Under the pieces are notes generated by a model that made no database searches, was not told the origin of the DNA, and saw nothing but the letters and a program-made list of their open reading frames with translations. This document shows, piece by piece, positions 49,731 through 61,529 of a DNA stretch of 64,000 nt. A program made the translations under genes and the position numbers. Position 1 is the first letter of the stretch, and every line of letters begins with the position of its first letter. This DNA is from Rheinheimera lutimaris (GTDB lineage: Bacteria; Pseudomonadota; Gammaproteobacteria; Enterobacterales; Alteromonadaceae), in contig NZ_JABSOD010000006.1 of the NCBI RefSeq assembly GCF_013283795.1, positions 1-64,000 on the forward strand. Reading direction: 5' to 3'.

Positions 49731-49759
49731 AAATAAGGCGCCACACGGGCGCCTTATTT
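49731..49759. terminator. Bidirectional intrinsic terminator
   Basis: A perfect 12-bp stem AAATAAGGCGCC/GGCGCCTTATTT has a 5-base loop between two convergent genes. A/T tracts on both ends make it work in either direction. Confidence 0.85.
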
Positions 49760-49772
49760 CAGAATCAGGATA

Positions 49773-50144
49773 TTAGCTTGCGCTACGTTCTTTAATTGCA
49801 GCGATAATTGGTGACGTGCCGAAACCGTTGCTGGTAGCCCACTCTATGTCACCTGAAGCGGCAACCTGGCTGCCAGGTAGCTGGCTGATGATAAAGCCGG
49901 CAGCGTCTGCAGCATTGTGTTTAATTGCATGGCGAACCAGTGGTAAACCGTCACATACAATACCGTCATATACGTTACGCAGGCGTAAGCGGTTATCAGA
50001 CAGAGTTTTACGCAGGTTGTTTTTGCTATCCGCTGCAACATAAGAGCAGATAGATTGAGCTAATTGATCGTTGGCAGCAGCAGGAGCGCTGATAAATGAA
50101 GTGGCGGCAATAACAGTAGCTAAAGTGATAAATTTTGCTTTCAT
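49773..50144 (-). CDS. Secreted DUF3718 protein under riboswitch control
   Basis: A 123-residue protein with a Sec signal (MKAKFITLATVIAATSFISAPAAA). DUF3718 features: LAQSICSYVAADSKNNLRKTLSDNRLRLRNVYDGIVCDGLPLVRHAIKH, with two cysteines that may form a disulfide, and a C-terminal helical tail. The function is unknown; periplasmic or outer location is expected. Its 5' leader contains a cyclic-di-GMP-I riboswitch about 120 bases upstream. GGAG is positioned before the ATG. Expression would therefore follow the motile/sessile switch. Confidence 0.85.
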   Translation of the reverse strand: MKAKFITLATVIAATSFISAPAAANDQLAQSICSYVAADSKNNLRKTLSDNRLRLRNVYDGIVCDGLPLVRHAIKHNAADAAGFIISQLPGSQVAASGDIEWATSNGFGTSPIIAAIKERSAS

Positions 50145-50261
50145 ATTCGAGCTCCAAAATGTGAGTTAATTAACAATCATTAATGCAACCGTGGTTGCAG
50201 AACACGAAAGGACATAAGGCATGTCGTTTAACTCTGACAGAGCAGAATAAACATCGCACTT

Positions 50262-50352
50262 AGCGACGGCAGCCCAGCTATCGTAGATGCCTTTACGGCA
50301 ACCCTTAGACCTGAAGCTTTGCGTGTACACCCTTTCGGGAGACTTGCCTTTC
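50262..50352 (-). promoter_or_regulatory. Cyclic-di-GMP-I (GEMM) riboswitch aptamer
   Basis: Read on the minus strand, the leader of the DUF3718 gene matches GEMM-I. It has a 5' GGCA arm, a CUCCC-GAAA-GGGUG stem with GNRA tetraloop, the invariant ACGCAAAGC, then CUAA, a second variable stem (GGGUUGCC...GGCAUC) and UAGCUGGGCUGCC closing P1 with the 5' arm. Order and spacing agree with the Vibrio Vc2 aptamer. Downstream are small hairpins (GACAU..AUGUC and GCAACC..GGUUGC) before the ribosome site that could form the expression platform. Whether it turns expression on or off cannot be read. Confidence 0.88.
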
Positions 50353-50451
50353 GAGCGTGCGCATTCTAATTAACGCTGGTTTTTTATGCAAGCTTAATTT
50401 TCGCTGAATTGAAACTTTTTCTAAATCTGATGGTTAGAGCTGTGTTGGTTA

Positions 50452-51948
50452 TTACGCTATCGCCATATTCAATGCCACCAGTGCTGCGTTAACACGTTGC
50501 CAACGCTGATACAACGCGTCGGCCAATGTCGGTGACAACTCAGGTTGTAACTGCCAATCACTGTGCCAAATCGTGTTGATATCTGCCAGCTTATCGACAT
50601 ATCCCAGCTGCAGCGCTACCAAAAATGCTGCGCCCAGTGCAGTGGCATCGGTGGTATGGCAGCGCGTTATTGCTGTTTGGCTTAAATCTGCCAGTGCTTG
50701 TAAAAACCAGCGGTTGGCCGTCATACCGCCATCAACACGCAAGCTGCTGACATTGATGCCATCTTGTTGCATAGCGATAAGTAAATCACGGCTTTGATAG
50801 GCTACGCTGCGAAGTGCCGCCGCCGCTATTTGCGTGCGGCCACTGTCGCGGGTTAAGCCAAATAATGCTGCCCTTACCTGCGGTTGCCAATGTGGTGTGC
50901 CAAGACCGGTAAAGGCGGGCACAAGCAGCTCGGTTTGTTGATAATCAATCCCGGTTGCCAGCACCTCACTGTCACTGGCCTGATGAATAATGCCCAGTTG
51001 GTCGCGTAGCCACTGTATGGTTGCGCCAGCCATAAAAATACTGCCCTCCAGCGCATAGGTGGTATTGCCGTTTAAGCGCCAGGCTATGGTGCTCAGCAGC
51101 TTATGCTCGCTGTGCAGTACTTTGTCGCCGGTATTTACCACGGCAAAGCAGCCGGTACCGTAGGTACACTTTACCATGCCGGCGTTGATACAGGCCTGGC
51201 CTAATAAAGCTGCCTGCTGGTCGCCAATCATGCCAAGCAGCGGCACGGCGGCGCCAAACATTCTGTTATCAGTCAGGCCGAATTCTGCTGCGTTGTCGCG
51301 TACCTGCGGCAACATAACCGCAGGAACATTAAACAGCTGCAGCAGTTCATTGTCCCATTGCTGGCTGTGAATATTAAACAGTAAAGTACGGCTGGCATTA
51401 CTGGCATCAGTGGCATGCACTTTACCGCCACTTAGTTGCCACAGCAGGTAGCTGTCGATGGTGCCGAAACATAACTCGCCGGCTTCAGCCAGAGCACGCG
51501 CTGTTGGCAGGTTATCTAATAGCCAGCTGAGTTTGCCGGCAGAAAAGTACGGGTCGGCTAATAAACCGGTTTTTTGTTGCAGCATGCTGTTGTGACCGGC
51601 ATCTTTCAGCTGCTGGCAGAGCTTTGCCGCACGTCTGTCTTGCCAGACAATAGCGTTGTATAACGGCTTACCGCTGCTGCGGTGCCACAATACAGTGGTT
51701 TCACGTTGATTAGTGATACCAATACCGGCGATATCAGCCGGTGTCAGGTTTGCTTGCTGTAATGCAAGGCTGATACTTGTGCTGACACTTTGCCAAATTT
51801 GTGCCGGGTCTTGCTCAACCCAGCCGGACTGCGGATAGCTCAGTGGCAGTTCTTGTTGCGCAGAGGCAATAGCTTGCAGTGCCGGATTGTAGATTATGGC
51901 GCGGCTTGACGTGGTACCCTGATCAATAGCGAGTATATATTTTGACAT
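50452..51948 (-). CDS. glpK: Glycerol kinase
   Basis: A 498-residue FGGY-family kinase making sn-glycerol 3-phosphate. N-terminal ATP-binding region ILAIDQGTTSSRAIIY, GWVEQDPAQIW, NQRETTVLWHRSSGKPLYNAIVWQDRR, LGMIGDQQAALLGQ, CTYGTGCF and the second FGGY signature VDGGMTANRWFLQALADL are all present. No glpF or glpD is adjacent in the window, so the rest of glycerol catabolism must lie elsewhere. It is divergent from the DUF1840 gene. Confidence 0.96.
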   Translation of the reverse strand: MSKYILAIDQGTTSSRAIIYNPALQAIASAQQELPLSYPQSGWVEQDPAQIWQSVSTSISLALQQANLTPADIAGIGITNQRETTVLWHRSSGKPLYNAIVWQDRRAAKLCQQLKDAGHNSMLQQKTGLLADPYFSAGKLSWLLDNLPTARALAEAGELCFGTIDSYLLWQLSGGKVHATDASNASRTLLFNIHSQQWDNELLQLFNVPAVMLPQVRDNAAEFGLTDNRMFGAAVPLLGMIGDQQAALLGQACINAGMVKCTYGTGCFAVVNTGDKVLHSEHKLLSTIAWRLNGNTTYALEGSIFMAGATIQWLRDQLGIIHQASDSEVLATGIDYQQTELLVPAFTGLGTPHWQPQVRAALFGLTRDSGRTQIAAAALRSVAYQSRDLLIAMQQDGINVSSLRVDGGMTANRWFLQALADLSQTAITRCHTTDATALGAAFLVALQLGYVDKLADINTIWHSDWQLQPELSPTLADALYQRWQRVNAALVALNMAIA

Positions 51949-61250: not shown

Positions 61251-61285
61251 TTGCTGCCCGAAATCTTTTTCTGTTACACTTGCCG

Positions 61286-61452
61286 GCGCTGAGGTGCGGG
61301 TGTATGCCCGCTGAAAAGGGAAGCAGGTTAAATGCCTGCACTGTACCCGCAACTGTAAAAAGTGCTGCAATCATTAACCACTGGCGATGTTATGCCGGGA
61401 AGGGGATTGTGGGTTATCACTTTAAGTCAGGAGACCTGCCTGAGCCTTATTA
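61286..61452 (+). promoter_or_regulatory. Cobalamin (adenosylcobalamin-type) riboswitch
   Basis: Conserved segments in order: GGUGCGGGUGUAUGCCCGC, GGGAAGCAGGUUAAAUGCCUGCACUGUACCCGCAACUGUAA, and at the 3' side the B12 box region AAGUCAGGAGACCUGCCUG. Downstream, CAGCAG (about 61474) and CUGCUG (about 61505) can pair ahead of the ribosome site at 61519-61523, suggesting translational control. It represses the uptake operon when cobalamin is abundant, as known for this class. Confidence 0.95.
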
Positions 61453-61529
61453 CGCCTGCGTGCGGGAGTTCACAGCAGCGGGGTTCCCCCATTTACCGGC
61501 GGGCCTGCTGCATTTGTCAGGAGTGGGTT

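Follow-up and report, generated by a model that had tools for sequence, protein, structure and literature searches.

A very probable c-di-GMP-I riboswitch ahead of a DUF3718 gene in Rheinheimera lutimaris, and the recurrence of this pair in its family

We analysed a stretch of 64,000 nucleotides from Rheinheimera lutimaris (contig NZ_JABSOD010000006.1, positions 1 to 64,000), hereafter the window. A cmscan search of the whole window returned two Rfam families at gathering score, RF01051 (c-di-GMP-I) and RF00174 (cobalamin). The cobalamin riboswitch (61275-61457, plus strand, 112.6 bits) precedes genes for an ABC ATPase, a FecCD-type permease and a CobO/BtuR-type adenosyltransferase, an ordinary B12 locus. 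The c-di-GMP-I (GEMM-I) element lies on the minus strand, as does the DUF3718 gene that follows it, with about 120 nt between aptamer and ATG. The main features of this locus are:

50363-50391, minus strand: promoter-like TTGCAT - 17 nt - TAGAAT just upstream of the aptamer (read from the sequence)
50265-50358, minus strand: c-di-GMP-I (GEMM-I) aptamer (RF01051, cmscan, 54.1 bits against a gathering score of 35, E-value 8.6e-8, full model 1-87)
50152-50155, minus strand: Shine-Dalgarno-like GGAG, 7 nt before the ATG (read from the sequence; GGAGC is aligned in most genus leaders)
49773-50144, minus strand: gene for a DUF3718 protein of 123 aa (PF12514, 67.8 bits against a cut-off of 22.5, residues 32-92; alignments A2 and A3)
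49731-49759, minus strand: intrinsic terminator-like hairpin after the gene (12 pairs, 6 of them G-C, T-rich tail)

An earlier note, made from the sequence alone, had claimed that the conserved GEMM-I blocks (GGCA, a GAAA loop, ACGCAAAGC, CUAA and UAGCUGGGCUGCC) stand in this leader. All of them are found in the window aptamer, and the covariance-model score that the note proposed as a check lies well above the gathering score. The aptamer extends 6 nt past position 50352, the limit in the earlier note. Its core (GGCA, GAAA loop, CGCAAA, CUAA and 3' GGGC..CC) is invariant across 30 aligned leaders of the genus; GGCA agrees with the RF01051 consensus and is likewise invariant in this leader alignment (A1). 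Its first G is presumably the equivalent of the ligand-selecting G20 of the Vc2 riboswitch, where G rather than A would point to c-di-GMP instead of c-AMP-GMP. As a full-length RF01051 match with the consensus blocks, the window aptamer resembles Vc2 of Vibrio cholerae. The two differ in their targets: Vc2 is described as preceding VC1722 (PMC4744006), whereas the window aptamer precedes DUF3718.

The description of a lone gene for a secreted DUF3718 protein behind a GEMM-I leader also holds. Besides the PF12514 match, the protein has a signal-peptide-like N-terminus with SAPAAAND (judged by eye), while Cys33 and Cys64 are invariant in an alignment of 44 sequences, consistent with a disulfide in an exported protein. 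Upstream lies glpK (ORF end at 50452) and downstream a convergent gene for a Kef-like antiporter, and the DUF3718 gene is followed by its own terminator-like hairpin. From these neighbours, the hairpin and the promoter-like sequence before the aptamer, we therefore read the locus as a single-gene transcript that starts with the riboswitch. A consensus scan reported no promoter in the 50363-50391 stretch, where the -35 element agrees with the consensus at only 3/6 positions. Within the -10 hexamer, T1, A2 and T6 do not vary in 30/30 aligned genus leaders. Using the loose pattern TAnnnT at 6-34 nt before GGCA, for which no chance control was made, we found matches in 51/51 leaders of the window's type and in 15/15 type B and 22/32 type A leaders (two further leader types, from other genera).

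The pair recurs throughout the genus and beyond it. All 31 genus genomes contain GEMM-I (62 copies in total) and an orthologue of the window protein, and in 31/31 a GEMM-I lies 99-130 nt upstream of the match to the best orthologue; in 18 of them this copy is the only c-di-GMP-I riboswitch found. The closest orthologues among named relatives are in Rheinheimera, Arsukibacterium, Alishewanella and Alkalimonas. An Rfam scan of 14 loci found the aptamer in seven orthologue loci (L142, L143, L145, L147, L148, L150 and L154) and no aptamer in the seven loci of paralogues or other genera. Of 295 genomes sampled from the same family, 281 contain DUF3718, and a profile search of these 295 revealed two further genera with close orthologues, g42 and g45. 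Here too GEMM-I precedes the orthologue (6/6 in g42 and 15/15 in g45), so that the aptamer, whose conservation before orthologous genes had been named as a check, is present in 31/31 genus leaders and in 21/21 from the two further genera. Two of the 19 more distant DUF3718 loci fetched alongside also have GEMM-I.

For a wider sample we took 40 genomes from 24 other genera, chosen for holding GEMM-I and including two (G041 and G155) already known to hold a GEMM-I-DUF3718 pair. Together they contain 123 GEMM-I and 170 DUF3718 domains. Of these GEMM-I, 49 sit 141-199 nt upstream of a DUF3718 domain on the same strand, where random placement would give about 0.04, and the pairs are spread over 34/40 genomes and 18/24 genera. 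One of them (L246) has a degraded aptamer core; without it, the count is 48 pairs in 33/40 genomes and 17/24 genera. The remaining 74/123 GEMM-I are not before a DUF3718 match. Conversely, most DUF3718 copies have no riboswitch: GEMM-I is missing at 121/170 domains in the 40 genomes and at 39/39 lesser DUF3718 matches in the 31 genus genomes, which rules out the link as a general property of DUF3718. In 40 genomes from other families of the order, no pair was found within 3 kb when 44 GEMM-I were compared with the 53 of 99 DUF3718 matches listed.

Several loci in this sample are unusual in their arrangement. In one (L243 and L244, G084:C1:35648-37540), the order GEMM-I - DUF3718 - GEMM-I - DUF3718 forms a tandem, and elsewhere (G205:C3:387078-387269) two GEMM-I aptamers lie 12 nt apart on one strand, not before DUF3718. 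A neighbouring upstream DUF3718 copy in G112 (L290) has no GEMM-I match. At L227 (G101:C29:7740-8596), GEMM-I stands before a DUF3718 frame with no start codon and a shortened domain match, a likely pseudogene.

A chance match at the window locus is very unlikely, and was discarded, because of the E-value and the GEMM-I before the best orthologue in every genus genome. It is also highly improbable that the element is an inherited passenger whose regulation goes unused, or that it acts mainly elsewhere, for example on the upstream glpK. c-di-GMP riboswitches are described as enriched among antisense-oriented elements (PMC9943018), which would fit such a role, but the window element has the same orientation as DUF3718 and its own promoter-like sequence. 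The aptamer core is moreover invariant or nearly so while the linkers differ strongly, and pairs are found in two DUF3718 lineages and in 17-18 of the 24 other genera. Judged on its sequence and conservation, the window element is very probably a genuine c-di-GMP-I riboswitch acting on DUF3718.

We then turned to the linker between aptamer and gene. The elements that bear on a possible switch are:

50347-50353, minus strand: aptamer 5' strand CGAAAGG, partner of the linker motif (genus leader alignment A1 and complementarity statistics)
50252-50268, minus strand: hairpin H1 (CGUCGC-UAAGU-GCGAUG), beginning at the last C of the aptamer's 3' GCC (covariation)
50252-50226 and 50225-50211, minus strand: two more predicted linker hairpins (minimum-energy fold)
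50205-50211, minus strand: CCUUUCG linker motif, candidate switching strand (reverse complement of 50353-50347; 3/7 positions invariant in alignment A1)
50200-50210, minus strand: left arm of a predicted stem covering the start codon, with its right arm at 50148-50138 (minimum-energy and centroid folds without the aptamer)

H1 is strongly conserved in its pairing. Scored in 50 of the 51 window-type leaders (in L125 no aptamer 3' end was located), a stem of at least 6 pairs starts exactly at the last C of GCC in 46 (exceptions L122, L123, L124 and L127), against a mean of 2.3 and a maximum of 8 for shuffled sequences in a test that takes no account of relatedness. Its arms fall into 10 classes, such as CGUCGC/GCGAUG, CGUAAU/AUUACG, CAUUAA/UUAAUG and CAUCCC/GGGAUG, with two-sided changes at three positions. 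The earlier note had suggested that small hairpins in the linker may be the switch; they are indeed present and H1 (50268-50252) covaries strongly, but the CCUUUCG motif is the better candidate for the switch itself. For the window linker, an intrinsic terminator was considered and rejected: H1 alone scores as terminator-like there, and the H1 of several relatives has no U-tail.

The linker motif is the reverse complement of the aptamer 5' strand, and such complementarity is common to all three leader types. At least 6 nt of perfect complementarity to that strand are present in 45/51 (88%) window-type leaders (shuffled mean 14%, highest 25%), in 80% of 15 type B leaders (mean 13%, highest 40%) and in 94% of 32 type A leaders (mean 24%, highest 44%), with shuffles that preserve base composition only and ignore relatedness. 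Two leaders of other genera, L246 with its degraded core and L227, were excluded from these statistics and from the tree below, so that 47 of 49 were used. The partner strands also change together, GAAAGG going with CCUUUC in most window-type leaders and GAAACG with CGUUUC in most type B leaders. Mean duplex energies are lowest when both strands come from the same type: -9.1 within the window type (R) vs -3.7 and -5.6, -8.3 within type B vs -6.6 and -5.7, and -7.0 within type A vs -6.1 and -4.7, a small margin in U-rich linkers. For the window leader alone, 10% of dinucleotide-shuffled linkers pair with the aptamer 5' strand as well as the real one. Pairing of the linker with other parts of the aptamer is about equally strong, and in many leaders stronger. 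Overall, we judge that the CCUUUCG motif has an even chance of being the switching strand.

The same complementarity could instead close the aptamer. CGAAAGG and CCUUUCG would then form a distal P1 across the intervening hairpins in the bound state, rather than an anti-aptamer helix. The covarying H1 occupies the sequence right after the aptamer's 3' GCC and so leaves little room for an ordinary P1, and a P1-like pairing is present in the unconstrained fold of the window leader (one leader). This arrangement nevertheless seems unlikely to us, as the longest complement is CCTTTCG in 35/51 window-type leaders and there pairs both Gs of GGCA as well, which GEMM-I is described as using (the Vc2 G20 equivalent) for ligand and P2 (PMC9262584).

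The motif overlaps the predicted stem over the start codon, which may provide the second state. When the leader is folded without the aptamer, CUUUCGUGUUC (50210-50200) pairs with GAAUAUGAAAG (50148-50138) in the minimum-energy and the centroid structure alike; this fold has a z-score of -2.81 and is better than 199/200 shuffles. For the window leader, the modelled start region has an openness of 0.00 when the aptamer is omitted vs 0.52 when the anti-aptamer helix is enforced. The Shine-Dalgarno region gives 0.62 in the 'bound' model vs 0.52 in the 'free' model, which speaks against an OFF switch. The anti-aptamer helix, when enforced, carries a penalty of about 10 kcal/mol for the window leader and a median of 5.6 kcal/mol across 47 window-type leaders. 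Folded in full and without constraints, the window leader retains the start-codon stem plus an aptamer-like 5' half. The two-state model, from which 4 window-type leaders and 1 type B leader with no complement of at least 5 nt were left out, has the start region of the free state opening in 15 of the 47 window-type leaders, closing in 2 and hardly changing in 30. Among 14 type B leaders it opens in 3 and closes in 7, and it opens in 32/32 type A leaders. The start reads ATGAAC in several genus leaders, which weakens the start-codon stem.

Taken together, these elements suggest how the leader may work. Without c-di-GMP, CCUUUCG (50211-50205) would pair with CGAAAGG (50353-50347) and capture the GG of the conserved GGCA. 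Because these Gs are taken up, the aptamer would be open and the start site relatively free at low c-di-GMP. When c-di-GMP binds, the 5' strand would be kept in the aptamer and CCUUUCG released; the freed CUUUCGUGUUC could then pair with GAAUAUGAAAG, covering the start codon and turning translation off. DUF3718 would accordingly be made at low c-di-GMP, and may act in the periplasm or outside the cell as an ankyrin-like binding protein. For the full scheme (a single-gene mRNA under a c-di-GMP-I riboswitch, with CCUUUCG as the switching strand and translation turned OFF), our confidence is evenly poised, and the OFF direction by itself is something of which we are no more than half convinced.

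Both directions have precedents. Vc2 of V. cholerae is described as switching translation OFF, with a key role for P1 (PMC9262584). In the window leader, by contrast, the aptamer passes at its 3' end into the covarying H1, and it is the aptamer 5' strand that the candidate switching strand would engage. Vc1, which precedes gbpA, is described as an ON switch in which c-di-GMP activates, GbpA serving chitin association (PMC4744006). Like the window element it is a GEMM-I in a long leader, one for which its authors report no apparent Rho-independent terminator or anti-Shine-Dalgarno sequence (PMC4744006). In the window leader, a candidate for the switching strand can be identified.

It is thus conceivable, if somewhat less than probable, that the same riboswitch turns DUF3718 ON: binding of c-di-GMP would prevent a terminator-like or RBS-blocking fold, and DUF3718 would be a protein of the sessile state. 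The type A leaders fit this. Their linkers carry GUGGUUUU, then more U, as the exact complement of the aptamer's AAAACCAC in 27/32 cases; of the others, L211 and L219 pair with a G-U, L234 has compensating changes, and L207 and L237 have one mismatch. Because GUGGUUUU complements AAAACCAC of the aptamer, a terminator with a U-tract would be available to type A leaders only in the open state of the aptamer. The window's H1, taken together with the TTTATTCT tail behind it, scored as terminator-like. The H1 of g42 and of most g45 leaders, however, has no U-tract after it (e.g., UGAACUGC and UAGGACGC), and folding the window leader without its aptamer puts the start codon into a stem, both of which argue against an ON switch. 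The type A U-tract and the example of Vc1 (PMC4744006) mean that we still reckon with the ON direction.

An AlphaFold2 model of the DUF3718 protein, built from 44 aligned sequences, is mostly helical (pLDDT 79, pTM 0.64). It aligns with ankyrin-bearing chains over about 85-100 residues, with a best VIA Z of 9.3, below the level of about 13 that the tool advises for helical repeats, and 8-20% identity in the matches listed. DARPins and other ankyrin proteins also make up most of the 50 Foldseek matches listed for the model, all with E-values of 0.5 or worse; among these are neurotensin receptor entries, in which the part matched is presumably a fused DARPin. While the model thus resembles ankyrin-repeat proteins (DARPins, tankyrase, FEM1B), the sequence does not: no ankyrin family profile matched, PF12514 alone being reported at E-values up to 10 in a search whose HMMER filters drop most weak matches. 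A sequence search of solved structures gave no clear relative and one weak match to an ankyrin protein (E-value 1.6). For helical repeats, a Z of this size is no more than suggestive of an ankyrin-like fold. Our best guess is a small exported binding protein.

To place the riboswitch-linked proteins among their relatives, we used a tree of 123 DUF3718 proteins, 62 of them with GEMM-I. The GEMM-I label requires only 3 changes on this tree, vs a mean of 41 for shuffled labels. Window-type proteins form one clade (SH-aLRT 99) whose nearest relatives have no GEMM-I (joint support 93), while types A and B form a second linked cluster of 47 (support 90) with one unlinked member, L290. A single clade of GEMM-linked DUF3718 was rejected (p-AU 0.0065) on a set of 83 proteins with few columns and in which long branches meet; this test dropped 40/123 rows (3 long branches, the unlinked L290, 20 of a far clade and 16 near-copies), and its group was named only after a first tree. 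The sequences suggest either two acquisitions of the GEMM-DUF3718 link or one old link lost in between. That two DUF3718 lineages carry GEMM-I leaders may mean that the link was gained more than once.

DUF3718 as a riboswitch target, and the breadth of this link, appear to be unreported in the open-access literature that we searched. There we found no mention of DUF3718 or PF12514, with most subscription papers and the early tables of GEMM targets lying outside this scope; no paper with both 'c-di-GMP riboswitch' and 'Rheinheimera'; and, in literature on Colwellia and on ankyrin repeats, nothing on the DUF3718 gene of the window.

Familiar as this class of riboswitch is, its targets show what is under c-di-GMP control. 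Of the three other GEMM-I of the same genome (L001-L003, on contigs C50, C8 and C2 of G000), one lies between flhA and a MotY-like gene, another precedes a ShlB/FhaC-type secretion gene, and the third precedes a lipoprotein-looking gene with no Pfam match. DUF3718 would be placed in the biofilm/motility switch, as the earlier note had proposed, and the DUF3718 family is likely an output of c-di-GMP, the signal for the change from swimming to surface life. Perhaps it is a dedicated extracytoplasmic output across the family, consisting of small exported ankyrin-like binders with a disulfide, each leader type having its own strand complementary to the aptamer and the link having been gained repeatedly; to this broader picture we attach moderate confidence. 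Pfam assigns this protein family no function; its position behind the riboswitch in one genus after another links it to c-di-GMP and makes its function testable, through motility, attachment and envelope phenotypes at high vs low c-di-GMP.
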